From a virus: DNA of 64,000 bases. The notes beneath the pieces were generated by a model that worked only from the letters and a program-made list of their open reading frames with translations, made no database searches and had not been told where the DNA came from. Within the stretch, counting starts at the first letter, position 1. Each line of letters starts with the position of its first letter. The stretch covers positions 62,001-126,000 of the IMG/VR virus record IMGVR_UViG_3300012039_000002, one strand, 5' to 3'. Positions 37,267 to 62,193 of this stretch are shown piece after piece. Position numbers and translations under genes: made by a program.

Positions 37267-39573
37267 ATGCGGCGAATATTCGATTTATTTAAAGACCTTC
37301 GAGATGTTCCATCTCCAGATGAGGGCAAGTTTTTAGTCTGGGATAATAATGAAACATTGAGAAACGCCTCTGGTACAGGCACTCCCGGTGAATCGGGTTA
37401 CTCTGGTTTTTCAGGCGCAAATCCCGGCCCTACAGGCTCTGCAGGCGCCTCTGGCTATTCTGGCGCCACAGGTTCTGGCTACAGTGGTTATTCAGGCCGA
37501 TCGGGCACTTCTGGTAAATCAGGCTTCTCTGGTTCCGGCACTTCTGGTTACTCTGGAATATCAGGCAGAGGTACAAGCGGGTATTCGGGTATAAGTGGTT
37601 CTGGTGTTTCTGGTTATTCTGGTCTTGCGGGATTATTTGCGGGCTCCGGCTATTCAGGTGAAACTGGCAGTTCAGGCTATAGTGGCTATTCAGGCTACTC
37701 CGGTTACAGTGGTTCTGGTGTAAGCGGCTATTCTGGCGATTCTGGCTATTCTGGCATAGGGACTTCTGGCTATTCTGGCATAGGGACTTCTGGCTATTCT
37801 GGCGATTCTGGCTATTCTGGCATAGGGACTTCTGGCTATTCTGGCGATTCTGGATATTCTGGTTCCGGTGTTTCCGGCTATTCGGGATTCAGTGGTTCAG
37901 GCACTTCGGGCTATTCCGGCGAACAAGGTAGCTCAGGCTACTCTGGAGATTCGGGCTATTCCGGCGAACAAGGTAGCTCAGGATATTCGGGTTCTGGAGT
38001 AAGTGGCTATTCGGGCGTCTCAGGTTATTCCGGCTACTCTGGCTCTGGCGTATCTGGCTACTCGGGTTTTTCTGGCTCTGGTGTATCTGGCTACTCGGGT
38101 TTTTCTGGTTCGGGTGTTTCCGGTTATTCTGGCTTCAGCGGTTATTCTGGCTTCAGCGGTTATTCTGGAATTGGTACTTCGGGTTATTCTGGAATATCAG
38201 GACATTCAGGCTCAGGTGTTTCAGGTTATAGCGGCTATTCTGGCGTAAGCGGTTACTCTGGGTTTTCTGGCCGCTCTGGTGTAAGCGGATATTCAGGTTA
38301 TTCAGGTAGGTCGGGCTATTCAGGCACTAATCCCGGTGTTCAGGGTGCTTCAGGTTATTCGGGTTATTCAGGCGGTTCTGGTATCGATGGTCTTCCTGGT
38401 GGAACATCTGGTTATTCTGGTTTTAGCGGATACTCAGGTGTTTCGGGTTATTCGGGTTCAGGTACTAGTGGTTATTCTGGCGAACAGGGCACTTCTGGTT
38501 ATTCTGGTTCGGACGCTTTAACGTCAGGCTATTCTGGTATTGATGGCACATCTGGTTATTCTGGCATCAATGGCGTTTCTGGCTATTCTGGCATCGATGG
38601 AGTGTCTGGCTATTCTGGTGTCGACGGTTCATCTGGTTATTCGGGTTTTGTGCCGGGTGGCTCAGGCTATTCTGGTATTTCCGGTTATTCAGGTGAATCT
38701 GGTGCTTCGGGCTACTCAGGTTTCGTTCCTGGCGGCTCAGGTTACTCTGGCATTTCTGGCTATTCAGGCATTGGAACTTCGGGTTATTCAGGTTCTGGCG
38801 TTTCTGGCTACTCTGGTTTTTCTGGATCCGGTGTATCAGGCTATTCAGGCTATTCAGGTAAGTCAGGTTACTCGGGTCATTCAGGTTTTGTGGGTGCGAC
38901 GGGAAATTCTGGCTATTCAGGCGCATCAGGTACTGATGCTCAATATTCTGGTTCATCTGGCTATTCTGGTTCATCTGGCTATTCTGGTTCCTCTGGAACG
39001 TCAGGTTATTCTGGTAAGTCGGGCTACTCAGGAAATTCTGGTTATTCTGGCTTTGGATATTCAGGCTATTCAGGAGCTACAGGCCTTCAAGGTTATTCAG
39101 GCGAAGCAACGTCAGGCTATTCTGGCGGCCAGGGTAATCAAGGTCTTTCTGGCTATTCTGGTTCTGGTGTGTCGGGTTACAGTGGTTCAGGTGTAAGCGG
39201 CTATTCGGGCTCAGGCGTTTCTGGCTATTCAGGCTTCTCAGGCTATTCAGGCTTGAGCACATCTGGTTACTCAGGTGAATCAGGCTATAGTGGCGCATCA
39301 GGCTACAGTGGTTATTCAGGAGTTTCAGGTTATTCTGGCACGCCGCCTGCAGGACTGGGCACTTATTCTGGATGGTCTGGCGCTGGTTCAACCTTTGTTC
39401 AGAACTCCGGTGTAGCAGTAGGGACGCCACTGGTATTTTTGACTCCAACAGATGCATCTGGAGCGACTTTATTTGGATACGTTTCTGGAATTGATGGAAC
39501 TTCAGGCTTTACAGCAGGCTACACTTCGCCAACAGGCGTTGTCACCTGGAACTACATAATCTTTACAAGCTAA
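37267..39573 (+). CDS. Giant Gly-Tyr-Ser repeat fibre protein 1
   Basis: This 768-aa protein has three parts. The N-terminal cap of about 38 residues (MRRIFDLFKDLRDVPSPDEG, KFLVWDNNETLR) is shared with the protein at 46285. Residues about 40-690 are an almost pure GYSG-type shaft (GYSGISGYSG, GSGVSGYSG, GIGTSGYSG). A C-terminal globular domain of about 75 residues follows (TFVQNSGVAVGTPLVFLTPT, VVTWNYIIFTS). The shaft would be a long fibre; it is called collagen-like because Gly recurs every third residue, but Pro is almost absent. The C-terminal domain is the likely receptor-binding or trimerisation part. Synonymous codons are varied along the shaft. Confidence 0.85.
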   Translation: MRRIFDLFKDLRDVPSPDEGKFLVWDNNETLRNASGTGTPGESGYSGFSGANPGPTGSAGASGYSGATGSGYSGYSGRSGTSGKSGFSGSGTSGYSGISGRGTSGYSGISGSGVSGYSGLAGLFAGSGYSGETGSSGYSGYSGYSGYSGSGVSGYSGDSGYSGIGTSGYSGIGTSGYSGDSGYSGIGTSGYSGDSGYSGSGVSGYSGFSGSGTSGYSGEQGSSGYSGDSGYSGEQGSSGYSGSGVSGYSGVSGYSGYSGSGVSGYSGFSGSGVSGYSGFSGSGVSGYSGFSGYSGFSGYSGIGTSGYSGISGHSGSGVSGYSGYSGVSGYSGFSGRSGVSGYSGYSGRSGYSGTNPGVQGASGYSGYSGGSGIDGLPGGTSGYSGFSGYSGVSGYSGSGTSGYSGEQGTSGYSGSDALTSGYSGIDGTSGYSGINGVSGYSGIDGVSGYSGVDGSSGYSGFVPGGSGYSGISGYSGESGASGYSGFVPGGSGYSGISGYSGIGTSGYSGSGVSGYSGFSGSGVSGYSGYSGKSGYSGHSGFVGATGNSGYSGASGTDAQYSGSSGYSGSSGYSGSSGTSGYSGKSGYSGNSGYSGFGYSGYSGATGLQGYSGEATSGYSGGQGNQGLSGYSGSGVSGYSGSGVSGYSGSGVSGYSGFSGYSGLSTSGYSGESGYSGASGYSGYSGVSGYSGTPPAGLGTYSGWSGAGSTFVQNSGVAVGTPLVFLTPTDASGATLFGYVSGIDGTSGFTAGYTSPTGVVTWNYIIFTS
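37768..37851 (+). repeat. Exact tandem duplication of 42 bases in the shaft
   Basis: The 42-base unit GGCTATTCTGGCATAGGGAC... (ending GGCTATTCTGGCGATTCT) occurs twice in a row at 37768-37809 and 37810-37851, with further partial units directly upstream from 37726. It encodes a GYSGIGTSGYSGDS unit. Because the unit is a multiple of three, gain or loss by slippage would change shaft length without breaking the frame. Confidence 0.9.
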
Positions 39574-40748: not shown

Positions 40749-43700
40749 TTGGCCATAGTTTTTCAAAACAAGAACTTTGCTAAGTCTCTCGTTGCGACCC
40801 TTCTTGGTTCTGGCGGTCTAAGCATATCTGTCACTGCTGGCACGGGAGTAAGGTTCCCTCAAACTGGCTTGTTTAAGCTAGTTATTTGGGGCGCTGCGTA
40901 TTCGAATCCTTCCGACGATCCCAACAGAGAAATAGTTCACGCTACATTATCAGCAGCGGATACTTTCACTATCGTTAGAGCTCAAGAAGACACAGTTGCA
41001 GGCACTTGGGTCGTTGGCTCTAAAGTCGCACACACAATTACTGCTGGAAAAATAAAAGAAATAGAAGATGAAATCTCTGTCGGCGGATCTGGATACTCAG
41101 GCTTTTCTGGCTATTCTGGTGTTGCTGGAGGCACTGGAGTTGCGGGCGTTTCTGGCTATTCTGGCTCAGGTGTAAGTGGCTACTCTGGCTCAGGCGTAAG
41201 TGGCTATTCTGGCTCAGGAATAAGCGGATATTCTGGCGAAGGTACTTCAGGTTATTCAGGCGCGGTCGGTGATATTGGTTTTTCTGGTTATTCTGGTTTT
41301 AGCGGTGCTCTTGGATTTCCAGGCGGCCCTGGCTTATCAGGTATGTCAGGCTATTCCGGCTTTGGAATAAGTGGCTACTCTGGCTCTGGAGTGTCTGGTT
41401 ACAGCGGAGATGCTGGCGTATCGGGCTATTCTGGCAGTGACGCTCAAACGTCAGGCTATTCTGGTGCAAGTGGCTATTCTGGCAGCGATGCTCAAACGTC
41501 GGGTTATTCTGGTGCAAGTGGCTATTCTGGACCAATGGGTCCTGGCGGCGGAGATTCTGGTTATTCTGGTTATTCAGGTAGCGATGCTCAAACGTCTGGT
41601 TATTCAGGTTTTTCTGGTTATTCTGGTGTCGGTTTTTCTGGCTCTGACGGTTCGTCAGGCTATTCAGGCTACTCTGGCGTCGGAACGTCTGGCTATTCTG
41701 GCGTAGGTTTTTCTGGAGCAGATGGTACGTCTGGTTACTCTGGCTCTGGAATTTCTGGTTATTCCGGCTCTGGTGTCTCCGGTTACTCTGGTTCTGGCGT
41801 CTCCGGCTACTCTGGCTCTGGAACTTCAGGCTATAGTGGAATAAGCGGCTACTCTGGCTCTGGTGTTTCTGGCTACAGTGGAGCATCCGGCTACTCTGGC
41901 TCAGGCGTCAGTGGCTACTCTGGCTCAGGCGTCAGTGGCTACTCTGGTTCTGGCGTATCAGGTTACTCTGGCTATTCAGGAATTTCAGGTTACTCCGGCT
42001 ACTCTGGTTATTCTGGAGTTTCAGGATATTCTGGCATTTCTGGCTATTCAGGTTATTCAGGATATAGCGGAACGACGGGTACAGGATTCGACTACTATCT
42101 AAGAGATATAGCGTCTGATGTTAGCGGATATGGTGAATTAACTAGATCGACACCGTCAGAAGCTCAAAATGACGACTCTGTTACTACAACAAGTGGTGCT
42201 CTGATCGAGGCATATGCAACTGAATCAGGCGATCCAAATGTCACGTCTATTTCTCCAGGAAAGTGGGCTTTCCACTTCTGGGGCTGGGTTAACAACAACG
42301 CGGGTTTACAGACATTTGTTTACGATGTTTATAAGAGAGACGCGTCGGGTGTCGAAACACTTCTCTTCACAAAGAGCAGTGCATCAATTGAATCTACCGC
42401 TTCTGGCACACCGACCGAACTTCAAGACGATTATTTTGATGGCAGTGGATTCACGATTGCTAATACAGATCGACTAGTTCTAAAAGTAAATGGCTTTACT
42501 GATACGGGCACTAGAACAATCCATCTACTCCATTCAGGCCCGACATTTGCGTCTCACTTTTCAACGCCACTCACAGTGGGTATCTCTGGCAGTTCAGGTT
42601 TTAGTGGTTATAGTGGAATTGGAACATCTGGTTACTCTGGAGTTTCAGGCTACAGTGGCATAAGCGGCTATTCTGGAATATCTGGCTATAGCGGTTATTC
42701 AGGCTCGGGTGTTAGTGGCTATTCTGGCTCTGGCGTAAGCGGCTATTCGGGCTCGGGTGTTTCTGGCTATTCCGGATATTCAGGTTCTGGAGTAAGCGGT
42801 TATTCTGGTTCCGGAGTTTCTGGTTATTCTGGAACATCTGGCTATAGTGGCTATTCTGGCTCTGGCGTTAGTGGCTATTCTGGTGTCGATGGCGTTTCTG
42901 GCTACTCTGGTTCTGGAACCTCTGGTTACTCTGGTTTAGCGCCAGAAACAATTACTTATCTGCCAACATGGGTTTCAGGTATTTCAGGCAGTTATTCAGG
43001 CGGAAATCTTGCTTCAATACAGACTGCTTATGACGCCGATGACTACATTGTCTGGGAAGTATCAGGCGTCCCTGGATTCGTAGTCAATGTCGATTACTCA
43101 GGTGTAGCGGCTTTCAATAAGGTCCAGCTTAGAACTGGCTATACGAACCCTAATCACACTGTCTTAGTAGAAGCATACAACAGTGGTGATACCACATGGG
43201 ATTCACTGGGTTCTTTCAGAGGATTTGCTGGTGGTTATGCAACATTCTCTTATGACGTCATTACAGATGTTCCATACATCCAAGCTGGAGGCTACGTACA
43301 GACGAGGTTTTACCATCAGTCGACGGGTAATCCTGCTGATGAGTTCTTGCTTGACTACATGACATTACAACAGGCTACCGCCGGCCCTCAGGGTCCTGAA
43401 GGTCAGTCGGGAGTATCCGGATATAGTGGAGTTTCAGGTTATTCTGGAACGTCGGGATACTCTGGTTATTCAGGCGATAGTGGTTATTCAGGACATAGTG
43501 GAAGCGGTATTTCTGGCTATTCTGGTTCTGGAACATCTGGTTATTCTGGTGTCTCAGGCTATTCTGGCTATTCTGGTTATTCGGGAATTTCAGGCTACAG
43601 TGGTGCTTCGGGCTACTCTGGTTATTCGGGAATTTCAGGTTACTCTGGATCTTCTGGTTATTCAGGCGTAAGTGGTGAAAATTATCCATGGCAAGGTGCT

Positions 43701-45266
43701 TGGGCTTCTGGAACTGCTTATGTGCCGAATGATACAGTCGGCTATCTAGGCGCCGGTTATATCTCAATTCAAAGCGGTTCGGGCCAAACCCCAGTTCCTA
43801 CGAGCACGGCATACTGGGATTTGCTTACTGCTTCAGGCTATTCAGGAATGTCGGGCTATTCTGGTTACTCTGGCTCTGGAGTTTCTGGTTATTCTGGAAT
43901 TGGCACTTCTGGCTATTCGGGCATTTCAGGCGCCTCTGGCTATTCTGGAATTTCTGGCTACTCCGGTTATTCAGGTTCTGGTGTAAGCGGCTATTCTGGC
44001 GTCGGAACATCTGGTTATTCAGGAGATTCTGGTTATTCAGGAATTACATATCCTTGGGAAGGCGCATGGGTTTCAGGCACGCTTTATCAAGTAAATGACA
44101 CTGTAAGTTATCTTGGTGCAGGTTTCATTTCTATTCAAAGCGGAGTAGGACAGACGCCTGATCCTGCAGGCACTGCTTATTGGGATCTTGTTTCTAGCTC
44201 AGGCTATTCAGGAATTTCAGGATATTCTGGCGTTTCTGGTTATTCAGGAGCTTCAGGTTATAGTGGTTACTCTGGCTCTGGCGTAAGTGGCTATTCTGGC
44301 TCAGGTGTAAGCGGCTATTCTGGCGTCGGAACATCTGGCTACTCTGGCTATTCTGGAGTATCTGGTTACTCTGGTTATTCAGGAATAAGTGGCTATAGTG
44401 GCTCAGGCGTATCGGGTTACTCTGGATATAGTGGCTATTCAGGTTCTGGTGTATCTGGCTATTCTGGCTCAGGTGTCTCTGGTTACAGCGGCTATTCAGG
44501 TTCTGGAATATCAGGTTACTCTGGTTCTGGAACATCTGGCTACTCTGGAGCCGGAACGTCTGGCTATTCTGGAGTAAGTGGCTATTCGGGTGTCTCTGGC
44601 TACTCTGGTTCAGGTGTAAGCGGTTACTCTGGTTCTGGTGTGTCGGGTTATAGTGGCTATTCTGGCGCAGGAACTTCAGGCTACTCTGGAGCTGGAACTT
44701 CCGGTTATTCTGGCTCTGGTGTTTCAGGTTACTCTGGCTATTCTGGCTCTGGCGTAAGCGGCTATTCTGGTGTTTCTGGTGCCGGAACGTCTGGCTATTC
44801 TGGTGGAACTGGTACCGATGGTACTTCTGGCTATTCTGGTGGAACTGGTACTGATGGTACGTCAGGTTACTCTGGATGGTCAGGCGCCGGAACGTCTGGC
44901 TACTCAGGATATTCTGGTCGTGCAGGTGTTAGAACTTACACATGGGTTATTGATACGCCTGTGGCAAGTAGTGCTCTTGCATCTGGAGTTCCTGGTCCGC
45001 GCCTTCGTGAAGCTCAGACCGCCACAAGAGTAGACGCATACACTCTAAACAACTCTGGATGGACGATCAACATTCAAGAGAGAAGTGCTATCGGTACTTC
45101 AGGTTCTAACCTCATTGCAAGCACTTACTTCCCAGCTGCTGGCGGTTCTGTGGCAAGCTTCTCAGATGCTGCTCTTGCTGCCGACAACTGGCTCTGGCTA
45201 CAGATAGTCGCTGTCTCTGGAACTCCAGGTCTTGGCGTTGTCACTCTAAGCACAACGGTACCATAA
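40749..45266 (+). CDS. Giant Gly-Tyr-Ser repeat fibre protein 2 with binding modules
   Basis: This is a 1505-aa protein. The start is TTG at 40749, supported by AAGGAG (40736-40741). The N-terminal 115 residues form the attachment module also seen at 32063 (FQNKNFAKSLVATLLG, EIVHATLSAADTFTI). The GYSG shaft is interrupted by globular modules: about 443-613 unknown beta domain, about 735-880 a repeated beta module (module A), and CBM5/12-like modules at about 978-1032 and 1100-1153 (YPWQGAWASGTAYVPNDTVG). A C-terminal globular domain (about 1392-1505) ends the protein. It is probably an outer tail fibre; no sialidase or depolymerase motif is evident. Confidence 0.85.
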   Translation: MAIVFQNKNFAKSLVATLLGSGGLSISVTAGTGVRFPQTGLFKLVIWGAAYSNPSDDPNREIVHATLSAADTFTIVRAQEDTVAGTWVVGSKVAHTITAGKIKEIEDEISVGGSGYSGFSGYSGVAGGTGVAGVSGYSGSGVSGYSGSGVSGYSGSGISGYSGEGTSGYSGAVGDIGFSGYSGFSGALGFPGGPGLSGMSGYSGFGISGYSGSGVSGYSGDAGVSGYSGSDAQTSGYSGASGYSGSDAQTSGYSGASGYSGPMGPGGGDSGYSGYSGSDAQTSGYSGFSGYSGVGFSGSDGSSGYSGYSGVGTSGYSGVGFSGADGTSGYSGSGISGYSGSGVSGYSGSGVSGYSGSGTSGYSGISGYSGSGVSGYSGASGYSGSGVSGYSGSGVSGYSGSGVSGYSGYSGISGYSGYSGYSGVSGYSGISGYSGYSGYSGTTGTGFDYYLRDIASDVSGYGELTRSTPSEAQNDDSVTTTSGALIEAYATESGDPNVTSISPGKWAFHFWGWVNNNAGLQTFVYDVYKRDASGVETLLFTKSSASIESTASGTPTELQDDYFDGSGFTIANTDRLVLKVNGFTDTGTRTIHLLHSGPTFASHFSTPLTVGISGSSGFSGYSGIGTSGYSGVSGYSGISGYSGISGYSGYSGSGVSGYSGSGVSGYSGSGVSGYSGYSGSGVSGYSGSGVSGYSGTSGYSGYSGSGVSGYSGVDGVSGYSGSGTSGYSGLAPETITYLPTWVSGISGSYSGGNLASIQTAYDADDYIVWEVSGVPGFVVNVDYSGVAAFNKVQLRTGYTNPNHTVLVEAYNSGDTTWDSLGSFRGFAGGYATFSYDVITDVPYIQAGGYVQTRFYHQSTGNPADEFLLDYMTLQQATAGPQGPEGQSGVSGYSGVSGYSGTSGYSGYSGDSGYSGHSGSGISGYSGSGTSGYSGVSGYSGYSGYSGISGYSGASGYSGYSGISGYSGSSGYSGVSGENYPWQGAWASGTAYVPNDTVGYLGAGYISIQSGSGQTPVPTSTAYWDLLTASGYSGMSGYSGYSGSGVSGYSGIGTSGYSGISGASGYSGISGYSGYSGSGVSGYSGVGTSGYSGDSGYSGITYPWEGAWVSGTLYQVNDTVSYLGAGFISIQSGVGQTPDPAGTAYWDLVSSSGYSGISGYSGVSGYSGASGYSGYSGSGVSGYSGSGVSGYSGVGTSGYSGYSGVSGYSGYSGISGYSGSGVSGYSGYSGYSGSGVSGYSGSGVSGYSGYSGSGISGYSGSGTSGYSGAGTSGYSGVSGYSGVSGYSGSGVSGYSGSGVSGYSGYSGAGTSGYSGAGTSGYSGSGVSGYSGYSGSGVSGYSGVSGAGTSGYSGGTGTDGTSGYSGGTGTDGTSGYSGWSGAGTSGYSGYSGRAGVRTYTWVIDTPVASSALASGVPGPRLREAQTATRVDAYTLNNSGWTINIQERSAIGTSGSNLIASTYFPAAGGSVASFSDAALAADNWLWLQIVAVSGTPGLGVVTLSTTVP

Positions 45267-46284: not shown

Positions 46285-49200
46285 ATGCAGCGCATATATA
46301 AGAGATTCCGCGAATTATTAGACGCTTCTCAGCCAGACGCTGGGAAGTTTTTGCGTTGGAGCACTAGCGGAACAATAGAAAATGCTGTGGGCGTTTCTGG
46401 CTATAGCGGCGATTCGGGCTACAGTGGTACGTCAGGAAAATCGGGATATTCCGGCTCTAGTGTATCGGGTTATTCTGGTAAGTCGGGCTACAGTGGTCGA
46501 AGTGGCTATTCGGGAATTTCCGGCTCAGGTGTTTCTGGCTATTCAGGCACTTCTGGCTATTCTGGTGCTCATGGTGTAATCGGTTTGTCGGGCACATCAG
46601 GATACTCGGGAAGATCAGGATCAGGAGTGTCTGGCTATTCAGGTTCTGGTACTTCTGGCTATAGTGGCTATTCCGGAGTTACTGGATCACAAGGCGCCTC
46701 AGGCAAGTCAGGCTATTCTGGTGCCGATGGAGTTAACGGAGCTTCAGGTCACTCTGGCTACTCAGGCAAGTCGGGTTATAGCGGCGCAGACGGGTCTATC
46801 GGTTATTCAGGTGAATCAGGCTATTCTGGCTTTTCTGGCTCCGGTGTTTCTGGTTTTTCTGGCTCCGGTGTTTCAGGCTATTCAGGAATTGGTACATCAG
46901 GATATTCTGGCTTAGATGCTCAGATGTCCGGCTATTCGGGTTATAGTGGTCTCAGCGGGGTTGGACTTGTCGGCCCTCCAGGCACTTCTGGTTATTCTGG
47001 AATTGGCACTTCTGGTTATTCTGGAATTGGAACTTCTGGTTATTCTGGAGTCTCAGGCTTAGGTGTGTCGGGTTATTCTGGAGTCTCTGGCTCTGGTGTG
47101 TCAGGCTACTCCGGCGTTGCGCCGTCGACTACGACATATCTTCCATCTTCAGTTTCAACAAACGTTGGGTCGTATGTATCAGGAACTTTGACGTCTATAC
47201 AGATATTTGGTGACAATGATGTTTATGAGGTAGATGAAGTTTCTGGAGTTCCCGGATTTGATATTCGCATTGATTTTTCTGGAGTATCCGGCTTTAATAA
47301 AGCGCAAATGAATATTTGGTACACGGGTGTTGCCAATCACATACCTAAAGTGCAAATCTATAACAACAACACAACAAGCTGGGATAGCATAGGTTCTCTA
47401 AACGACGATACAGAACTTCAATCGCACGAATTTGCTGTAATAAATAGTGTTCCGTACATATCAGCCGGCGCAGTTTCGACTAGAATTTATCACGAAACAT
47501 CTGGCATAATAACGCACGACATTTTAGTAGATTATTTTGTACTTCAAAATGCTATTGGCGGCGCTCAAGGCATCCCCGGCTTTATTGGTCCTTCTGGCTA
47601 TAGCGGCTCTAGTACCTCGGGTTACAGTGGACTCTCAGGTTATTCAGGACTTTCTGGTACTTCCGGTTCTGGTACGTCAGGTTATAGCGGTTTTGTAGGA
47701 GTACCAGGAGGCCAAGGAATATCTGGCTATTCTGGCATAAGTGGTTATTCCGGCATAAGTGGGACTTCTGGTTATTCCGGTATTGGAACATCCGGTTATT
47801 CTGGAATAAGTGGTTATAGCGGTTCAGGCGTTTCAGGCTATAGCGGAATTTCAGGCTCAGGCGTAAGCGGTTATTCTGGTTCCGGAGCTTCGGGTTACAG
47901 CGGCTATTCTGGTTTTGGAGTGTCGGGTTACAGTGGTTCAGGTGTAAGTGGCTATTCTGGTTCTGGTATTTCCGGTTATTCGGGTGACATAGGAACTTCG
48001 GGCTACTCAGGATTAAACGCTGATTCAGGATCGCCCGGCGTATCCGGCTACTCTGGCTATTCTGGTATTGGCACGTCGGGCTATTCTGGTATCGGTACAT
48101 CCGGGTATTCAGGCGATAGCGGTATTTCTGGCTACTCTGGTTCTGGTGTAAGTGGATACTCTGGTTATAGCGGCGTTTCAGGAATTTCTGGCTACTCTGG
48201 TGTGTCTGGTTCTGGTGTGTCTGGTTATTCTGGTTACTCTGGTTCTGGTGTGTCCGGTTACTCTGGTGTCTCTGGCTTTTCTGGTTACTCTGGTTCTGGT
48301 TATTCTGGTTATTCTGGTTATTCTGGTTACTCTGGTTCTGGTGTATCTGGTTATTCTGGTTACTCTGGTTCTGGCGTGTCTGGTTATAGTGGCTATTCTG
48401 GCTCCGGTGTAAGTGGCTATTCTGGTTCTGGCGTATCAGGTTATAGTGGCTATTCTGGTTCTGGCGTATCGGGTTATTCAGGACAAGACGGTGCGACGGG
48501 AAATTCTGGCGACTCTGGCTACAGTGGCGCCTCGGGATACTCTGGCCAGGATGGTATCATCGGCTTTAATGGCGACTCTGGCTACAGTGGCCTCTCAGGA
48601 TACTCTGGCTACAGCGGCTACTCTGGCTCAGGTGTAAGTGGTTATAGTGGCTATTCTGGCTACAGTGGCGTTTCAGGATATTCTGGTTATAGTGGCATTT
48701 CGGGCTACAGCGGCTCTGGCATTTCGGGCTACAGTGGCTCTGGCGTAAGTGGCTACAGCGGGCTCTCACCAGAAAATGTCACTTACTATGCTAGTGGCTT
48801 TGATGTGCTGACAGGAACTCTCACATCTGGGACTACTCTTTCTCTATCTGGCTTCAATGACGGTGACTTTGCTCATGTAGACGAAGTTGGAGGTGCTCCG
48901 GGATTTGACATTCGTATTGGCTTCTCTGGTGTCGACACTTTCAACGAAGTAATACTAAATGCTTTTTATCTTGGTAGTGCTGGTCACATAGTAAAAGTTG
49001 ACTTCTTCAATAATGCAACCTCTGGCTGGGATTCGTTTGGAACACTGAATGATGACATAGCTTTTCAGGTCCACGAGTTCCCAATCCCAGATGATACTGA
49101 TTATATTGCTACAGGTGGAGTGGTTGCTTCAAGAATATATCATTATTCTAATGGTCAAACGTCGCATGATTTTGACTTAGACTATTTTGTCATCCGAGAT

Positions 49201-51360
49201 TCCATTGGCGGCTCTCAAGGAATAGAAGGCATATCTGGCTACTCTGGCTACTCTGGTTATTCGGGTTCGGGCGTCTCAGGCTATTCGGGTTCTGGTGTCT
49301 CAGGTTATTCTGGCTCAGGCGTAAGCGGCTATTCTGGTTCTGGAACATCAGGCTATTCTGGTGTCGGAACGTCTGGCTACTCGGGAGCTTCCGGCTATTC
49401 TGGCATCTCAGGTATTCAATATCCGTGGCAGGGCGCTTGGGTGTCGGGTACTGCTTATATACCGAACGATTGTATTGGTTATCTTGGTGCGTCATACATT
49501 TCGATTCAGAGTGGTTCGGGTCAAACCCCAGTCCCTACTGGAACAGCATATTGGGATCTACTGGCGTCGTCAGGTTACTCTGGCATTTCAGGTTACTCTG
49601 GCTCCGGTGTTTCGGGCTACTCAGGTTCAGGCACTTCTGGTTATTCTGGCTATAGCGGAAAATCTGGCTATAGCGGCTATTCAGGCTATTCAGGCTCTGG
49701 TGTTTCAGGTTACTCAGGTTCTGGAACATCAGGCTATTCAGGCTATAGTGGTTATTCAGGATATTCTGGACATTCTGGTTACTCTGGTGTCAGCGGTTAT
49801 TCAGGTGTCTCTGGCTATTCGGGTATTAGTGGTTCTGCGCCGTATATCGGAGTAAATACTCATACATCTTCAGATCTCATGGGTACATATCCTGCTGGTA
49901 TGTCTTTGATGACAGTGAACGTAGGACTCTCTACTGGTTGGCCTGAACCTGTAGGTTCTGCAAATTGTCAAGGAGAAGTAATTACTTATTATGACAATAC
50001 ATATGGTGCCGACGGCATAGGATTAGGTTATCAAGAATATCATGTTAGAGGAGGTCAACCAAATTCAAATACTTCAAGATATTATAGAAAACCAGATACA
50101 GCTGAAGCTGGTTCAGCATGGACAGCTTGGAGTGAAGGAATAGGCATTTCTGGATACAGTGGTTATAGCGGCTACTCTGGATATTCTGGCTACTCAGGAT
50201 TCAGTGGTTATTCTGGAAACTCAGGATACTCTGGCTACTCTGGCTCAGGTGTAAGTGGTTATAGTGGCTATTCTGGCTACTCTGGCTCTGGAACTTCTGG
50301 CTACAGTGGCTTTAGTGGAATTTCAGGTTACTCTGGCTTCTCTGGTATCAGTGGTTACTCTGGCTATTCCGGTTCTGGTGTTAGTGGCTATTCCGGATAT
50401 TCCGGTTCTGGTGTTAGTGGCTATTCCGGATCGCCTAACTCTAATGCAGACACAGTAGACGGACAGCATAATTACGATTTCTGGAGATATTGTGGTAATA
50501 GAACGACTGATGCTACACCGACTGACGTATCTAATTTGGTTGGGGGATTTACTTTTTATACACAATTTGTCTCAGACGTATCTGGTTATCCAGAAACAAC
50601 GTACGGCCCAGTGTGGGGTTTCGCCGATAATCTTAATGGTTCTGTATTTTACGGCTGGGAAATGTATAAGGGTTACAGCGCTAGTTTGTATCTTAGGACA
50701 CAGACTGGCTTAACTACATGGTCTAGTTGGTCTATACTTGGATCATCAGGAAACAGCGGTTATTCCGGTTTCTCTGGTATTAGTGGCTATTCAGGATCTG
50801 GCGTTTCTGGTTATTCAGGATTCAGCGGCTACTCAGGTGTTTCTGGCTACTCTGGCTCTGGTGTCTCTGGCTACTCCGGAACTGTAGCCGCGGGATCTAT
50901 TACAGGATCAGGAACAAGCGGGTATATCACTAAATGGGGGAGTGCTTCTGGTATAACTTCTTCTCTTCATCTTCGTGAAGACGCTGAAGGAGTGTTCATT
51001 GGTGGCAATCTTTCTAGCGGCGCTGCATACTTTCATATAGATTCTGACACAAAAGACGACGTACCGTTTAAGGTTACAGGAACTCAGGGAGAGCTGTTTT
51101 CAGTTACAGACAATCTAGATTCACTTCTTCAATCAGTCAACGACATCACAGGACTGCCAGTATTTGAAGTTTATGCTGATGACCGCGTAGTAGTACACGG
51201 GGCAACTGAGGTGGTGGCGAAGGACGCTCCGTCAACTCCGGCAGCTGATAATGCGAGACTTTACGTGACGGCTTCCGGCGCAACACCAAACAGGGAAATC
51301 GCTCTTAATGTAAAATTCGAAGATGGAACAGTAGTGATATTATCATCGGTATTGGTGTAA
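46285..51360 (+). CDS. Giant Gly-Tyr-Ser repeat fibre protein 3 with five binding-type modules
   Basis: This 1691-aa protein is the largest in the window. The N-terminal cap (MQRIYKRFRELLDASQPDAG) is paralogous to that of fibre 1. The GYSG shaft carries module A twice (about 283-430 and 829-978: VPGFDIRIDFSGV and APGFDIRIGFSGV), a CBM5/12-like module (about 1045-1098, YPWQGAWVSGTAYIPNDCIG), and two pyocin-knob-like modules (about 1186-1287, ending SAWTAWSEG; about 1383-1488, ending LTTWSSWSILG). The last 160 residues form a C-terminal domain (DSDTKDDVPFKVTGTQGE, NREIALNVKFEDGTVV). No ribosome binding site is evident; it may be coupled to the gene upstream. Confidence 0.85.
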   Translation: MQRIYKRFRELLDASQPDAGKFLRWSTSGTIENAVGVSGYSGDSGYSGTSGKSGYSGSSVSGYSGKSGYSGRSGYSGISGSGVSGYSGTSGYSGAHGVIGLSGTSGYSGRSGSGVSGYSGSGTSGYSGYSGVTGSQGASGKSGYSGADGVNGASGHSGYSGKSGYSGADGSIGYSGESGYSGFSGSGVSGFSGSGVSGYSGIGTSGYSGLDAQMSGYSGYSGLSGVGLVGPPGTSGYSGIGTSGYSGIGTSGYSGVSGLGVSGYSGVSGSGVSGYSGVAPSTTTYLPSSVSTNVGSYVSGTLTSIQIFGDNDVYEVDEVSGVPGFDIRIDFSGVSGFNKAQMNIWYTGVANHIPKVQIYNNNTTSWDSIGSLNDDTELQSHEFAVINSVPYISAGAVSTRIYHETSGIITHDILVDYFVLQNAIGGAQGIPGFIGPSGYSGSSTSGYSGLSGYSGLSGTSGSGTSGYSGFVGVPGGQGISGYSGISGYSGISGTSGYSGIGTSGYSGISGYSGSGVSGYSGISGSGVSGYSGSGASGYSGYSGFGVSGYSGSGVSGYSGSGISGYSGDIGTSGYSGLNADSGSPGVSGYSGYSGIGTSGYSGIGTSGYSGDSGISGYSGSGVSGYSGYSGVSGISGYSGVSGSGVSGYSGYSGSGVSGYSGVSGFSGYSGSGYSGYSGYSGYSGSGVSGYSGYSGSGVSGYSGYSGSGVSGYSGSGVSGYSGYSGSGVSGYSGQDGATGNSGDSGYSGASGYSGQDGIIGFNGDSGYSGLSGYSGYSGYSGSGVSGYSGYSGYSGVSGYSGYSGISGYSGSGISGYSGSGVSGYSGLSPENVTYYASGFDVLTGTLTSGTTLSLSGFNDGDFAHVDEVGGAPGFDIRIGFSGVDTFNEVILNAFYLGSAGHIVKVDFFNNATSGWDSFGTLNDDIAFQVHEFPIPDDTDYIATGGVVASRIYHYSNGQTSHDFDLDYFVIRDSIGGSQGIEGISGYSGYSGYSGSGVSGYSGSGVSGYSGSGVSGYSGSGTSGYSGVGTSGYSGASGYSGISGIQYPWQGAWVSGTAYIPNDCIGYLGASYISIQSGSGQTPVPTGTAYWDLLASSGYSGISGYSGSGVSGYSGSGTSGYSGYSGKSGYSGYSGYSGSGVSGYSGSGTSGYSGYSGYSGYSGHSGYSGVSGYSGVSGYSGISGSAPYIGVNTHTSSDLMGTYPAGMSLMTVNVGLSTGWPEPVGSANCQGEVITYYDNTYGADGIGLGYQEYHVRGGQPNSNTSRYYRKPDTAEAGSAWTAWSEGIGISGYSGYSGYSGYSGYSGFSGYSGNSGYSGYSGSGVSGYSGYSGYSGSGTSGYSGFSGISGYSGFSGISGYSGYSGSGVSGYSGYSGSGVSGYSGSPNSNADTVDGQHNYDFWRYCGNRTTDATPTDVSNLVGGFTFYTQFVSDVSGYPETTYGPVWGFADNLNGSVFYGWEMYKGYSASLYLRTQTGLTTWSSWSILGSSGNSGYSGFSGISGYSGSGVSGYSGFSGYSGVSGYSGSGVSGYSGTVAAGSITGSGTSGYITKWGSASGITSSLHLREDAEGVFIGGNLSSGAAYFHIDSDTKDDVPFKVTGTQGELFSVTDNLDSLLQSVNDITGLPVFEVYADDRVVVHGATEVVAKDAPSTPAADNARLYVTASGATPNREIALNVKFEDGTVVILSSVLV

Positions 51361-54601: not shown

Positions 54602-54602
54602 C

Positions 54603-55385: not shown

Positions 55386-55394
55386 GGAGAAAAC

Positions 55395-55742
55395 ATGTTT
55401 ATAGTAAAGTTTGGAAGATACGCTGTTGTTTTTTATATCGGATGGAACAATTGGTCTTTTGGCGTGAAATCAGGCTTTCAGGGTCGGTCCTTTGGGCCTA
55501 TTATTTTTATTCGGCCCAGATGCATTGATGATAGAGGAATGTTGGAACACGAACTGGTTCACTCACGTCAGTTCTGGAATCCGAGAAAGTGGTTCATTGG
55601 AAAGCTCGCTAGAGAGGTTGAAGCATACCGAGAGCAGCTAAAATGGCATCCAGATAGAGCAGACATTTTTGCGACAATATTGTCGACGAGATATGGATTA
55701 AATATTACAAAAGAAGAAGCTTTAAAATTGCTTACAGCATAG
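55395..55742 (+). CDS. Small HExxH zinc-peptidase-like protein
   Basis: This 115-aa protein has HELVH at residues 52-56 (within LEHELVHSRQFW) and a downstream Glu-rich stretch EVEAYREQLKW (about 75-85) that can provide the third zinc ligand, as in minimal zincin-type peptidases found in phages. The N-terminus is hydrophobic (YAVVFYIGWNNWSFGVK) but not a clear signal peptide. AAGGAG precedes the ATG. A role in processing of virion or envelope proteins is possible, but no substrate can be named; a non-catalytic zinc-binding protein is the alternative. Confidence 0.65.
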   Translation: MFIVKFGRYAVVFYIGWNNWSFGVKSGFQGRSFGPIIFIRPRCIDDRGMLEHELVHSRQFWNPRKWFIGKLAREVEAYREQLKWHPDRADIFATILSTRYGLNITKEEALKLLTA

Positions 55743-55783: not shown

Positions 55784-57001
55784 TTGAAAGTATTATTAAT
55801 TCATCCGCCGCACCCTAATTCTACTGATGACAGGCTTGATCCTCCAATGGGCCTTCTTTATATTGCATCTCATTTAGAGAAAAACTATGTAGACGTGGAT
55901 GTTTTAGATTTGTCGGGAAACAGCGATTGGGACGTTGCTATACCATTTGCTGACATTTATGGGATTACGTCTTATATCGCCACGCTGGGTATAACTGAAT
56001 CGATAGCAAAGCTGTGCAGATTAAAAAACGCAAAAGCTCAGGTAATTATCGGCGGAGCTCACGCATCTGTGCGTCCGCAAGACTTTCCGTATGCCGACAA
56101 GGTGGTTAGAGGCTATGGTGAAGCTCCCATGCTGGCTCTTTGTGGCAAACAAGCGACAGTGGACCTATTTGAGTTCCCTGCATTCAATAAAGTTAATTTA
56201 GGATCCTATTCAAGGCTAATAGACGGAAAGCCCTCGGTTCCCTTTTTAACATCTAGAGGCTGCCCATTCAAATGCAGCTTTTGTGGTCTGGCTTCTATGC
56301 ATAATATAAATGGTCGGTACCACATGATGAAGCCTGACGTGGCTGCAACGCAGCTATGCCGTATTAAGAATGAACTTGGCATTGATAGATTAAACTTCCA
56401 AGATGACATTTTTACGATGAATCGCCCTAGACTCTTTAAAATACTAGAGGCAGTAAAGGAGCTAGGATTTAGATTCTCTTGTATGGGTAGGGCAGGCTAC
56501 GACACTGAAGAGACTTACGAGAAACTAGCTGAGTCAGGATGTCAACAGATAGCATGGGGAATAGAAACAGGTTCGCAATACATGCTTGACCGTATGAGAA
56601 AAGAAATAAAAGTTCAAGACAACTATAACGTAATTAAATGGGCTAAGAAATATGGTATAGTATCTAGGGCTTTCTTTATGATAGGATTTCCCGGAGAGAC
56701 TAGAGAAACGATAGAGGAAACAAAACGTTTCATAGAAAAATCAGATCCTGACCAATACTTTGTTTCTAACTTTACGCCGTATCCTGGAACAGAAGTAGCT
56801 GAAAATCCAGAATGGTACGGAATTACTGGCATGTCTCATGATTATAGCAACTATTTTCAGGTTTCAAAAGACGGCCCTGGCGGATGTAACATAGATACAG
56901 AGTGGCTTTCTAGAGAGCAATTTAGAGAACTAGAACTAGAGTTTAGACAATGGATTAAGTCCCGAGGCATGAGAGGAGCTAAGCAAAAATATGAAGGTTA
57001 G
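55784..57001 (+). CDS. Radical SAM protein with B12-binding-like N-terminal domain
   Basis: This is a 405-aa protein. The TTG start at 55784 is supported by AGGAG (55773-55777). Residues 1-120 form a Rossmann-type domain of the cobalamin-binding radical SAM group (VLLIHPPHPNSTDDR start, AQVIIGGAHASVRP). It lacks an obvious DxHxxG motif, so cofactor binding by that fold is uncertain. Residues 160-167 hold the CxxxCxxC iron-sulfur site (CPFKCSFC), followed by IETGS (radical SAM strand) and FFMIGFPGETRETIEE. Family members methylate or rearrange substrates. It overlaps the next gene by 11 bases. The substrate is unknown; fibre or surface-glycan modification is an inference from the neighbours. 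Confidence 0.85.
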   Translation: MKVLLIHPPHPNSTDDRLDPPMGLLYIASHLEKNYVDVDVLDLSGNSDWDVAIPFADIYGITSYIATLGITESIAKLCRLKNAKAQVIIGGAHASVRPQDFPYADKVVRGYGEAPMLALCGKQATVDLFEFPAFNKVNLGSYSRLIDGKPSVPFLTSRGCPFKCSFCGLASMHNINGRYHMMKPDVAATQLCRIKNELGIDRLNFQDDIFTMNRPRLFKILEAVKELGFRFSCMGRAGYDTEETYEKLAESGCQQIAWGIETGSQYMLDRMRKEIKVQDNYNVIKWAKKYGIVSRAFFMIGFPGETRETIEETKRFIEKSDPDQYFVSNFTPYPGTEVAENPEWYGITGMSHDYSNYFQVSKDGPGGCNIDTEWLSREQFRELELEFRQWIKSRGMRGAKQKYEG

Positions 57002-59360
57002 TATAATAATTGCAACTTACAACCACTTGGAAGATTGTTTAAAGCCTTGCTGCGAGGCAATTAAGCAATACGTAAACTTAAACGAATGTGAAGTAATTAT
57101 TGCGGCTAATGGCTGTACAGATGGTACTCGTGAATACGTAGAAAGCTTGGGCGAATCCTTTAAGCTTGTTTGGTTTGAGAAGCCCGGTTTTGCCATTCCC
57201 GTTAATGCAGCGGCGCAAATAGCTCAGGGCGAGTACTTGTTGTTTCTAAACAACGATTGCTTCTTGCTTAAAGACAACGTCATCAATCTTATGTTGGCTG
57301 AGTTTGAGAAAGATTCTAAAGTCGGTGTTGTCGGCCCTGAATTTTGCTACAACGAATACGCTGATACAAATTATTTGAAGTTCTATTGCGCAATGATGCC
57401 CAAGACTCTCTTTGATGAGCTTGGACGATTCGACGTGCTCTTTGCTGATGGTACTTGTGAAGATGTTGATTTATGTATAAAGACAGAAAAGGCTGGCTAT
57501 AAGCTTGTTATGGTCACTTTGCCAATCTTTCACAAATTTGGAGTTACTGTAAGGGAGTTGAAAAACATAAGTCAGATTCTGACCAAAAATGCTCTCAGTC
57601 TTGGCAAAAGATATAATTCTAAATGGTATCAGAAATATTATAAGAAAATGTCGGAAAGACTTTGCGTATCTATTGTTATTGCGACGTATAATCACTTAGA
57701 GGACTGCTTAAAGCCTTGCATAGAATCAATACAGAAATACTGCAATCTTAATAACAAGGAAGTGATAGTCGTTGCTAACGGATGCACAGACGGAACTAGA
57801 GAATATGTTGAGAGTCTGGGAGCTCCGTTTAGACTTATTTGGTTTGACGAGGCAATCGGCGCTGCTAGGGCGTACAACGCAGGAATAAAAGAAGCTAAGT
57901 ACGAAAACATTCTGATTCTTAATAACGACGTCTTTTTCTTAGAACAAGAAAAAGACACTCTAATCAATATGCATCTAATACATTTCAACAATCCAAAGAT
58001 CGGTATTGTGGGTCCTATTAAGTCGGTTAGCGCTCCAATTAATCGAGAATTTATAATATTCTTTTGTGCAATGATTCGCAAAGAGGTCTTTGACAAGATT
58101 GGCTATCTTGATGAAATTTTCACAGTGGGTGCCGGCGAGGATACAGACTTCTGTTTGAGGGCTGAGGCTGCTGGTTATAAAATGGCAGTAGCAGGGGAGA
58201 TGACTGGTCACAATTCTGCTGAGGGTCAAATCACAGGCTCTGTCCCTATCTTTCATAAGGGCGAAGCGACTGTACATGATGAAAGTTTGGTCTCGGGCTG
58301 GAAGGAGATATTTCAGCGCAATGGTGAGATTCTTGCTGAAAGGTATCCCAAAGTTGAGGTTGTGGAGCGAAAAGAAATTCTCTGCGTTATTCCGACGAAA
58401 GGCAGATATTTTACAACTCTTCCTCTTGCAATTCAGTCTGTAATTTCGCAGACTGTAAAGCCCGACAGATTAATCGTGTACGATGATGGCGAACATAAAG
58501 ATTTGAGACAAAACTCTGTTTATCAGTATCTTTTTAGCACACTGGATTCTGCTGGTATAAAGTGGGAAGTTTCGTTCACAAGAGGCATAGGTCAGCATTT
58601 TGCGCATCAAGCTGCTAACACATCTGATTTTAAGTTCGTGTGGCGATTGGACGACGATACAGTTGCTCGCCCCGATGTTTTAGAGAAGCTGCTGTCTCAT
58701 ATGCAAGAAGGCATTGGCGCAGTTGCTGGTTCGGTGATTACGCCGGGACAGGAAGCTAAATCAGATTTTTATGCGACGCATCTTATTGATATAAATAGAA
58801 TGCCCAATTTGCAATGGGCTAGAGGTGCAGGCGTTTACGAAGTAGAACATCTCTATAGTTCGTTTCTGTATAGAACTAACATAGCTGATTATTGTTTGGA
58901 GCTTTCAAAGGTAGCTCATAGAGAAGAAACGATTTTTACTCATAGGCTGTTTCGTGCTGGCTATAAACTTTTAGTAGATAGATCAGCCGTAACTTATCAC
59001 TACCGCAATCCTGAAGGTGGTATTAGAACCGAAAAGGATCCCAAGCTTTGGGAACAGGACGAGGAAATATTTAGAACTGAATTGAGAAAATGGGGCTATA
59101 AGTTTATTGCTCTATCTCATGGCCTTGGCGATCATCTTATGTTTGTTAATATCGTCCCTGAACTTTTAAAGAGATGCAAGACGCTTGTTATGTTTTGCGT
59201 TTACGGCGACGTTTTTATGGGGCTGCCAAATGTTATTTGTTTGCCTTTGGGCGACGCAGCTGCTTTTGGTTGCAAAGAGACAAGCGTGTATGAATGGATG
59301 GTAAAGTACAATTGGAAAAGGAGCATGTTAGAGGCTTATGAAAAACTATATCTTAATTAG
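56991..59360 (+). CDS. Triple GT2-domain glycosyltransferase with truncated GT9 C-terminus
   Basis: This is a 789-aa protein with three GT-A domains in tandem. Domain 1 (about 1-215) and domain 2 (about 222-460) are near duplicates: SIIIATYNHLEDCLKPC and SIVIATYNHLEDCLKPC, both with NGCTDGTREYVESLG, and NND at the metal-binding position. Domain 3 (about 462-680) begins LCVIPTKGRYFTTLPLAIQS and has RLDDDT. The last part (about 690-789) has LSHGLGDHL, the start signature of GT9 heptosyltransferases, but stops after about 100 residues. The missing half is in the next frame. Such multi-domain enzymes build short glycans on a protein or on the host surface. Confidence 0.85.
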   Translation: MKVSIIIATYNHLEDCLKPCCEAIKQYVNLNECEVIIAANGCTDGTREYVESLGESFKLVWFEKPGFAIPVNAAAQIAQGEYLLFLNNDCFLLKDNVINLMLAEFEKDSKVGVVGPEFCYNEYADTNYLKFYCAMMPKTLFDELGRFDVLFADGTCEDVDLCIKTEKAGYKLVMVTLPIFHKFGVTVRELKNISQILTKNALSLGKRYNSKWYQKYYKKMSERLCVSIVIATYNHLEDCLKPCIESIQKYCNLNNKEVIVVANGCTDGTREYVESLGAPFRLIWFDEAIGAARAYNAGIKEAKYENILILNNDVFFLEQEKDTLINMHLIHFNNPKIGIVGPIKSVSAPINREFIIFFCAMIRKEVFDKIGYLDEIFTVGAGEDTDFCLRAEAAGYKMAVAGEMTGHNSAEGQITGSVPIFHKGEATVHDESLVSGWKEIFQRNGEILAERYPKVEVVERKEILCVIPTKGRYFTTLPLAIQSVISQTVKPDRLIVYDDGEHKDLRQNSVYQYLFSTLDSAGIKWEVSFTRGIGQHFAHQAANTSDFKFVWRLDDDTVARPDVLEKLLSHMQEGIGAVAGSVITPGQEAKSDFYATHLIDINRMPNLQWARGAGVYEVEHLYSSFLYRTNIADYCLELSKVAHREETIFTHRLFRAGYKLLVDRSAVTYHYRNPEGGIRTEKDPKLWEQDEEIFRTELRKWGYKFIALSHGLGDHLMFVNIVPELLKRCKTLVMFCVYGDVFMGLPNVICLPLGDAAAFGCKETSVYEWMVKYNWKRSMLEAYEKLYLN

Positions 59361-59796
59361 CCCATGGTCAAAAGAGCTTAGGGACAAGTCATATAATCCT
59401 AAAAACTATCCATTTTGGGAAGACGTAATTGAGGTGCTTAAAGAAGAGTACGATATTGTTCAAATCGGGGTAGTTGGGGAAAAGCAGCTTGTAGATGATT
59501 TTAGGACTAATCTTCCGCTAAGAATAGTGGGTGAGCTTCTTTTGGATCCCGCTTGTTACATTTGGATCTCAGTTGACAATTTTCTTCCGCATTTAGCACA
59601 CGTGGTGGGAAAAGAGCCGGGCATTGTTCTTTGGGGACCTTCGGACCCCAACATCTTCGGATACAAACAAAACAAGAATTTGCTTAAAGCTAGAAAATAC
59701 TTGCGGCCAGATCAATTTGGCATATGGGATGGGCAGAAATACAATCCAGATGCTTTTGTGCCTGCTAGTAAAGTCATAGAAGCAGTAAGGGGTTAG
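59338..59796 (+). CDS. GT9-like C-terminal domain, separate or frameshifted
   Basis: This 152-aa protein looks like the C-terminal half of a GT9 (ADP-heptose:LPS heptosyltransferase-like) enzyme: PSDPNIFGYKQ near residue 100, IWISVDNFLPHLAHVVG (donor-binding region with SVDN and HLAH) and GIVLWGPSDP. The N-terminal half is at the end of the previous gene. The ATG lies 23 bases before the previous stop codon, in a +1-shifted frame. Either the two halves pair as subunits, a frameshift event joins them, or the gene was split by mutation. Confidence 0.7.
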   Translation: MKNYILISPWSKELRDKSYNPKNYPFWEDVIEVLKEEYDIVQIGVVGEKQLVDDFRTNLPLRIVGELLLDPACYIWISVDNFLPHLAHVVGKEPGIVLWGPSDPNIFGYKQNKNLLKARKYLRPDQFGIWDGQKYNPDAFVPASKVIEAVRG

Positions 59797-60555: not shown

Positions 60556-62193
60556 TTGAAAACTAACTTGTTAAAGATGATCTTCGTAAAGAAGAAGAAT
60601 CTAGACTACTTTGATCTGCCTTGTGCAGACAAATTAGAAGACGTTAGAAGGGCAGTTGTCGATTTGCAGGCTATGGTTTTTTACCTGAATTCTGAACTGT
60701 CACAAGGCGTTGTGCTTTCAGAAGTTGTAAAGGTATCGAATAGAGAGTTTCTATCTAAATACTTAGGGTTAAAAGATAGCCATTTTGCGTCGGCTTCAGA
60801 GGACAAGATTAGCAATTACCTTAGAGTTACAGCTACTGACAGATATTTCGTGTTTAACTATTCTGATAACTTTTTCTTTAATTCTATAAACAAAGATCTC
60901 GAAGCAATGTATCGCCCTACTTGGACTGTTCAGTTGCGAATTTGTAGAGGGATTATTTTTGATCGTGAAAATGGAGAGCTTGTTTCTTTCCCACTAGAAA
61001 AGATATTCAACGTAGGCGAATATAGAGATGGAGAGATTTCACGATTTGCTAAGAAATTTGTTGATGTGCCGTCTCAGATGGCTGAAAAGCTTGATGGAAT
61101 ATTAATACAAGCGTTCTACGATAGGCAGAACGACGAAGTGCACTTTAGCACTCGATCGCAGATCGATTATGACGACAATGGCTATATAGATACGGCACGT
61201 CGGCTAGCGAAACGAACTGGGCGCATTTCAGCGCTAAAAGATTTGCTAAGGCATAACAAATCAGTGGCTTTTGAGCTTATTTCTCCCGATCACAGAGTTG
61301 TTATTGGATATGGCAAGAAATTTGGGCTGATACTTCATCATGTAAGAGATCTTAAAACATACAAGACTTTAGACTATATAGAGCTTCAGAAGGTGGCAAA
61401 GAGCTTGGGCTTTGCTTCTCCGACTACAGCTCATTTTAATAGCTTTGAGGAGCTCCTAGATTTTCAGAAGACGAACAAGCAGGCTGAAGGCTATATTGTT
61501 AAGTTTGAGGACGGATCCGCAGTTAAGGTTAAGACGAATTCTTATTTTGACAAGCTTAAGGGTTTGAGATCTCTATCATATGCTTCTATTGCTGAGTCCG
61601 TTCTTAATCGTGAAGATTGGAACATATTCAAATACGATAAGATTAAGTCTGAAGAGCTGTTTAGTGCTGCGAATCATTATCGCGCGAAAATAATTGACCA
61701 GTTCGGCGCGTTCGACAAATTCATCCAGCAATTCTGCGAAAAGCTGGTATGCTTTTCTGGATGGCAGGAATATGGCACTAGGGAAAAACTAGAGGCTATG
61801 ACTGAATTCAATTACGCTTACATAGAGGCTGTAAACCAGCGCTCCCTCGATCCTGACAAGGTCTCAAAAGAAGACTTTCGTATAGCAATCAACTATTGCA
61901 TCAAATATATGTTGCTACACGATGAGAACGTCATCGATGCTTACAACAAGAAAGTCATGGAAATCACTGTAAAGGCGCTTCGCACTTCAGCATGGATGGG
62001 CGCCAAATTGGAAGAGCTTAATAGATCATACACAGCTGCTTCACTTAGAAAAGATTTAGGCGGATCGGCCATGGGAGGCGGAAGCACTTCTATGGGCGGT
62101 CTTGGTTCTATAGTATCTGACATTGGGAAACCCATTGTCCCTATGAAGAAAGAAGAAAAGGACAAACGGAAGAAGGTGGAGGAATGGCACTAA
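60556..62193 (+). CDS. RNA ligase
   Basis: This 545-aa protein has the nucleotidyltransferase motifs of T4-type RNA ligases: motif I KLDG with the adenylated Lys178 (AEKLDG), motif IIIa FELIS (Glu240), motif IV EGYIVKF (Glu311) and motif V KVK (324-326). RNA ligases seal nicked tRNA or other RNA, often to counter host anticodon nucleases. The C-terminal part is helical, with a Gly-rich tail (GGSAMGGGSTSMGGLG). The start is uncertain: TTG at 60556 has no clear ribosome binding site; an in-frame ATG at 60577 would remove seven residues. No polynucleotide kinase gene lies beside it. Confidence 0.85.
   Translation: MKTNLLKMIFVKKKNLDYFDLPCADKLEDVRRAVVDLQAMVFYLNSELSQGVVLSEVVKVSNREFLSKYLGLKDSHFASASEDKISNYLRVTATDRYFVFNYSDNFFFNSINKDLEAMYRPTWTVQLRICRGIIFDRENGELVSFPLEKIFNVGEYRDGEISRFAKKFVDVPSQMAEKLDGILIQAFYDRQNDEVHFSTRSQIDYDDNGYIDTARRLAKRTGRISALKDLLRHNKSVAFELISPDHRVVIGYGKKFGLILHHVRDLKTYKTLDYIELQKVAKSLGFASPTTAHFNSFEELLDFQKTNKQAEGYIVKFEDGSAVKVKTNSYFDKLKGLRSLSYASIAESVLNREDWNIFKYDKIKSEELFSAANHYRAKIIDQFGAFDKFIQQFCEKLVCFSGWQEYGTREKLEAMTEFNYAYIEAVNQRSLDPDKVSKEDFRIAINYCIKYMLLHDENVIDAYNKKVMEITVKALRTSAWMGAKLEELNRSYTAASLRKDLGGSAMGGGSTSMGGLGSIVSDIGKPIVPMKKEEKDKRKKVEEWH

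Follow-up and report, generated by a model that had tools for sequence, protein, structure and literature searches.

BclA is a cellular collagen-like protein of the usual Pro/Thr triplet type, Mimivirus has both collagen-like proteins and its own glycosyltransferases (GTs) for them, with hydroxylysine as the modified residue, and TibC-type enzymes (the autotransporter O-heptosyltransferases TibC and Aah) modify Ser of surface proteins. Here we analyse a stretch of viral DNA of 64,000 nucleotides (nt), henceforth referred to as the window (bases 62001-126000 of the 163,355-base virus record IMGVR_UViG_3300012039_000002), which encodes terminase, tail and baseplate genes, three long collagen-like fibre genes and, downstream of these, an island of radical S-adenosylmethionine (SAM) and GT genes. 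Comparison with related loci suggests that this island probably represents, in this virus, a cassette that is widespread among phages and serves to glycosylate their own collagen-like fibres.

The glycan of collagen-like proteins is thought to aid helix hydration in BclA-type Bacillus spore proteins (PMC8968730), and PMC3368898, citing Bann 2000, names glycosylated threonine as a known collagen stabiliser. The phage-borne collagens of Escherichia coli that were studied previously are Pro-rich, have no aromatic residues and are unglycosylated as recombinant proteins (PMC3368898). Mycobacteriophage GTs modify their own virion, at capsid and tail-tube C-termini, according to Freeman et al. 2023 as cited in PMC12619734. 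Comparable phage GTs have been interpreted as modifiers of lipopolysaccharide (LPS) or DNA (PMC7029224, PMC8024684, PMC10202952). In the open-licence literature no article joins phage, collagen-like, Gly-X-Y and glycosyltransferase, and none of the 15 listed with the string SGYSG concerns phages.

Results

The island and the fibres of the window

The island comprises the following features:

55784..57001, + strand, B12-binding-domain radical SAM enzyme, 405 aa (PF04055 1.2e-24, PF02310 3.9e-12)
56991..57635, + strand, GT2a domain, about residues 1-215 of a 789-aa protein (PF00535)
57645..58355, + strand, GT2b domain, about residues 219-455 of the 789-aa protein (PF00535)
58356..59360, + strand, core: GT2c fused to the N-half of GT9 (GLGDH) (alignment A2)
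59338..59796, + strand, core: C-half of GT9, the donor-binding half (alignment A1; WaaC 2.9e-5, TibC 0.95)

The 789-aa protein (56991-59360) is a GT2-GT2-GT2-GT9(N-half) fusion, in which three Glycos_transf_2 stretches (PF00535, overall E=1e-51) precede a terminal GT9 N-half (henceforth GT9N) with a GLGDH motif; the separate C-half is referred to as GT9C. The radical SAM and GT genes overlap by 11 nt and the GT9 halves by 23 nt, which suggests that the island forms one operon. An initial annotation, made from the sequence alone, had described a radical SAM enzyme with a B12-domain-like part, three GT2 domains and a split GT9, and these were borne out at the positions it gave: both radical SAM domains score above the Pfam cut-offs, and the GTs are recovered by Pfam and by a WaaC profile match. 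Its placing of the island directly after the fibre genes needs correction, as five open reading frames (ORFs; 51362-55742), two of them LamG-like and the others probably of structural type, separate the last collagen-like ORF (end 51360) from the radical SAM gene. The three fibre genes are:

37267..39573, + strand, collagen-like fibre with 141 overlapping SGxSG motifs and Ser at 88% of Y positions (PF01391 2.2e-42; PHROG tail-fibre families)
40749..45266, + strand, collagen-like fibre with 198 SGxSG motifs and inserted globular domains (PF01391 2.5e-27)
46285..51360, + strand, collagen-like fibre nearest the cassette, 225 SGxSG motifs (NCBIfam collagen-like adhesin models on the repeats, under cut-offs)

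The first two belong to the collagen family PF01391, and the Gly-X-Y runs of the window fibres are interrupted, reaching at most 14-21 triplets. Ser at the Y positions of these fibres is encoded by both TCN and AGY codons, which argues for selection on serine and against recent DNA duplication as the sole cause.

The core pair accompanies Ser-type collagen-like fibres

Relatives were gathered from IMG/VR with each island protein and with alignments A1 (GT9C) and A2 (GT2c-GT9N); locus rows L001-L003 and repeat loci of one contig are excluded from counts unless stated. In 143 of 208 loci, a count that keeps overlapping loci of one contig, the core (GT2c-GT9N then GT9C) has a collagen-like gene no more than 8 kb away, and in all 143 the two are on the same strand. 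When cores were grouped at 50% identity, 11 of the 12 clusters had a nearby collagen-like gene. Contig truncation accounts for many of the loci that lack one, and among six long-flank loci without nearby collagen three (L036, L037 and L040) carry Ser-type collagens in another part of their record. The cultured phage P19250A shows the order collagen, methyltransferase, core GT2c-GT9N, core GT9C. Its 1,201-aa 'tail length tape-measure protein' (locus L004, KX815270.1 21390-24995) is a collagen-like fibre of family PF01391 (5.6e-124) with about 90 SGxSG motifs.

Ser occupied more than 50% of Y positions in 118 of 119 collagens beside a core, selected by a filter that would also admit Ser-free collagens. 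Across 12,885 triplets of core-adjacent collagens, Y was Ser in 88% and X was Tyr in 33%, Ile in 18% and Phe in 14%, with Pro near zero. The initial annotation had named both Ser and Tyr of the shafts as possible O-glycan acceptors; Ser at Y, near-constant at 88-92%, retains that standing, whereas Tyr does not, since X varies among Tyr, Ile, Phe, Thr, Ala and Val.

The association was also examined in the reverse direction, by sampling phages blind to their enzymes with a DNA pattern encoding GYSGYSGYSG. Of the 64 loci whose SGxSG protein was genuine, 28 had the core nearby and 14 more had it elsewhere in the record (42/64); the strict count, which omits one partial match (G022), gives a core in 40 of 62 distinct Ser-type collagen records. 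Chance matches of the same pattern served as non-collagen controls and had a core in 0 of 51, one core-positive control having been dropped because Ser-type collagens flank its core on both sides. A second sample, drawn with a DNA pattern for GPX-GPX collagen, yielded 82 Pro-type collagen loci (X = Pro 50%, Y = Ser 6.5%), none of which had a core (0/82; one generic GT2 match, G130, was disregarded). The difference between Ser-type (40/62) and Pro-type (0/82) records is significant (Fisher P = 5e-20). The enzyme set thus tracks the identity of the shaft residue, which would most simply mean that it acts on that residue. These comparative results, same-strand linkage and the contrast of 40/62 with 0/82 and 0/51, support the suggestion of the initial annotation that the phage decorates its own fibres.

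Some Ser-type collagens in records without a core have other enzyme genes close by. Two 2-oxoglutarate (2OG)-Fe(II) oxygenases adjoin a 2,307-aa Ser-type collagen (L222:387-1546, - strand), where hydroxylation in place of glycosylation is possible; a radical SAM gene (L266:3027-4409) and a GT8-GT9 fusion (L271:7110-8711, - strand) may be other enzymes that serve the same fibres.

The core is an undescribed, almost exclusively viral enzyme pair with a split GT9

The two alignment scans confirmed at least 549 (GT2c-GT9N) and at least 585 relatives in IMG/VR. By comparison, seven relatives were found in 84,980 bacterial and archaeal genomes and a single one, that of P19250A, in 50,697 cultured-phage records, so that the core is confined almost wholly to viruses. 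No PHROG matches the core and its NCBIfam scores all stay under the cut-offs, and the GT2/split-GT9 pair is an undescribed enzyme family. A match on a Rhizobium plasmid proved to be generic GT2 only.

Alignment A2 (14 rows) has 35 invariant columns, among them DDD, EE and GxGD; the last corresponds to the N-terminal G-x-G-D motif of the GT9 family, whose members consist of two Rossmann halves, with G256, G258 and D259 (GLGD) invariant. In A1 (17 rows) the C-terminal donor-site motifs of the family (K; V-D-x-x-x-x-H) are represented by invariant K22 and D80/H85, aligned with the corresponding WaaC segment. GT9C alone has no Pfam match; its family profile matches the WaaC heptosyltransferase (E=2.9e-5) and weakly TibC (E=0.95), and a naturally fused homologue (L040) matches Glyco_transf_9 (PF01075) at 3.5e-4, under the cut-off. 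The structure predicted for this fused core (pLDDT, the predicted local distance difference test score, 90) places its GT2 domain, which all fold matches listed for the model concern, nearest to the polypeptide N-acetylgalactosamine (GalNAc) transferases that act on Ser/Thr (Z 19.7). This predicted likeness is consistent with Ser/Thr glycosylation.

GT9 is split in 124 of 138 distinct loci and is one fused gene in three (L019, L040 and L119). Among the 124 split loci the halves overlap by 4 nt of the ATGA type in 82 and by 23 nt in 10; the 23-nt overlap of the window is identical in three other IMG/VR contigs, which are possibly the same virus as the source. The split is therefore a genuine gene fission, and the split GT9 of the initial annotation is a real, conserved feature: a frameshift or assembly error is ruled out because 124 loci retain the split and most of them have ATGA-type overlaps, and programmed frameshifting is disfavoured because the two halves have separate starts and a gene intervenes at some loci. 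The intervening gene is a methyltransferase in L153 and a GIY-YIG homing endonuclease gene in L038. Probable homing-endonuclease genes that divide the halves were located at L038:7396-7977 (GIY-YIG/NUMOD3) and, by a similar start, at L030:2988-3698.

Accessory enzymes vary around the constant core

Only GT2c-GT9N and GT9C are constant; the presence of the radical SAM gene varies, and so does the number of GT2 copies, of which close relatives have 2-4 extra. In 151 distinct loci the accessories were SAM methyltransferase (85), extra GT2 domains (82), radical SAM (7) and, as counted in this search, GT17 (4). The commonest gene order is collagen, GT2 and/or methyltransferase, GT2c-GT9N, GT9C, and a minimal form of collagen and core only is present at L052, L068, L107, L197, L204 and L221. 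The radical SAM gene of the cassette is retained only in close relatives of the window, and L009 and L043 lack it at the equivalent position. This variable presence marks the radical SAM enzyme and the first two GT2 domains as accessories.

The radical SAM protein (55784-57001) has a CX3CX2C cluster motif and an N-terminal B12-binding fold, as expected of a cobalamin-binding radical SAM enzyme. Among solved structures the closest is AprD4 (3e-16, core only), which acts in the deoxygenation of aminoglycoside sugars. NCBIfam matches to PhpK, HpnJ and BchE lie far under their cut-offs, no B12 subfamily cut-off is reached, and the predicted model has a pLDDT of 58. Its likeliest role, suggested with low confidence, is perhaps to modify one of the sugars in the glycan.

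A search of the phage record for a nucleotide-sugar epimerase found none, so sugar donors are probably supplied by the host. Only one locus, L140, carries a partial HldE and HldD (adenosine diphosphate (ADP)-heptose genes) beside the core. The genes directly upstream of that cassette (L140:1760-3957) encode CTP_transf_like, partial HldE kinase, cupin-like and HldD proteins and probably represent phage-borne ADP-heptose synthesis. The record of the window also contains two FkbM methyltransferases, a CmcI-like methyltransferase and a second, weak radical SAM gene (L309:37-726, L309:13807-14481, L313:4126-4779 and L308:8596-9501).

Other genes of the window and its record

Two further features of the window are:

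949..1746, - strand, GT17 glycosyltransferase (PF04724 3.4e-12)
60556..62193, + strand, RNA-ligase-fold protein (phrog_562 2.4e-39, PF09511 3.6e-22)

The GT17 may be an extra member of the same glycosylation system, as GT17 is fused within or adjoins core cassettes at L033, L036, L037, L040 and L120. The RNA-ligase-fold protein, related to the PHROG 'RNA ligase and tail fiber attachment catalyst' (T4), lies just downstream of the fibre and glycosylation genes; we claim no part for this neighbour in glycosylation. Outside the window, NAMPT-like, CTP_transf_like-NUDIX and NADAR genes (L309:4250-6778 and L312:16699-17118) form a nicotinamide adenine dinucleotide (NAD) salvage set, possibly for counter-defence against NAD depletion. 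From L312:19523 to L313:1885 about six small ORFs have a common N-terminal motif, K-[VIL]-R-x-D-F-V-T-N-S-S-S-S-S-[FA]; the four tested had no Pfam match.

Discussion

On the sequence evidence, Ser at Y is a strong candidate acceptor. The core most likely puts a sugar on the Y-position Ser of Gly-X-Ser and then adds a second sugar, and the variable enzymes (other GT2s, GT17, methyltransferases and, here, radical SAM) would extend or decorate the glycan, with methyltransferases perhaps methylating its sugars, to give each phage an individual sugar coat. An unmodified triple helix is doubtful in these fibres because Pro is nearly absent; for the same reason the glycan may replace the role of hydroxyproline in animal collagen and stabilise and stiffen the triple helix. 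A bolder and more tentative proposal, which we put forward as possible, is that these fibres make up a large class that has gone unrecognised, built of proline-free collagen which needs phage O-glycosylation of Y-position Ser by GT2/split-GT9 before it can fold or stiffen, with a methylated, variable outer glycan as a diversified coat.

Several observations weigh against fibre glycosylation by the core. The core records L066, L140 and L153 show no collagen, and 22 of 62 Ser-type collagen records are without a core; many of these end at the collagen, but some are long contigs (for example 168.8 kb), which implies that other solutions for Ser-type fibres exist. The linkage could reflect a common role in host recognition rather than an enzyme and its substrate, and other GT2s, including polysaccharide synthases, tie with the GalNAc-transferases in the fold comparison or trail them by 1-2 Z units.

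Alteration of host LPS or another host glycan against superinfection, with linkage to fibres through host recognition, was the alternative offered by the initial annotation. It is the usual interpretation of phage GTs near tail fibres (PMC7029224, PMC8024684, PMC10202952), and it would suit the classical function of GT9 proteins as LPS heptosyltransferases and the ADP-heptose genes that adjoin the core in L140. We nevertheless consider it unlikely, as it does not predict the dependence on fibre triplet type (40/62 against 0/82). Furthermore, no GtrA flippase was found in the (possibly incomplete) phage record, although the controls were positive, the GTs have no membrane segment by hydropathy, in contrast to membrane-anchored GtrB of Gtr systems, and the GT genes sit within the structural gene block.

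The dependence on triplet type bears equally on the idea that a virion protein is glycosylated at another target, the capsid or a globular fibre tip, and not at the Gly-X-Ser shaft. Mycobacteriophages, which glycosylate capsid and tail tube (as PMC12619734 reports), provide a precedent, and the three core records in which no collagen was found would be accommodated, yet the preference for Ser-type over Pro-type collagen is left unexplained and we regard this as very unlikely. That the GTs, with or without the radical SAM enzyme, glycosylate modified bases of the phage genome is improbable in the extreme: GT2c is weakly like a TET-associated GT (E 0.006) and phrog_842, a beta-glucosyl-HMC-alpha-glucosyltransferase (4e-5), but both matches represent generic GT-A similarity, and the core is tied to one class of fibre gene and has a GT9 partner.

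Annotation routinely treats GTs next to phage tail fibres as modifiers of host LPS or DNA, and glycosylation of Ser-type fibres by the core would provide a concrete, testable enzyme-substrate pairing, account for hundreds of such GT genes together and assign a role to enzymes that no PHROG covers. The core could provide a compact means of producing recombinant collagen that is glycosylated, and the fibres could be a natural test case for whether sugars can replace hydroxyproline in the triple helix. With its 38.7-kb genome and near-minimal set (methyltransferase and core), the cultured P19250A makes the question experimentally accessible now.

The proposed phage fibre would resemble BclA as a prokaryotic collagen-like filament bearing sugars; it differs in being viral, nearly Pro-free and built of Gly-(Tyr/Ile/Phe)-Ser triplets, and its enzymes are an undescribed GT2-GT9 pair. 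Compared with the E. coli phage collagens, the present fibres are of the opposite type, with almost no Pro, aromatic X and Ser at Y, and it is from this opposite composition that we propose that sugars assume the stabilising role. Lys, modified as hydroxylysine in Mimivirus, is rare in the phage fibres, where Ser is the candidate acceptor. As proposed for the core cassette, mycobacteriophage GTs act on their own virion proteins, although their targets are capsid and tail tube, and the 50,697 cultured-phage records, mycobacteriophages included, hold no core relative except P19250A. Finally, GT9C shares homology with the donor-binding half of WaaC (2.9e-5) and is marginally similar to TibC (0.95), whereas two genes encode the phage GT9, the first of which joins its N-half to a GT2.

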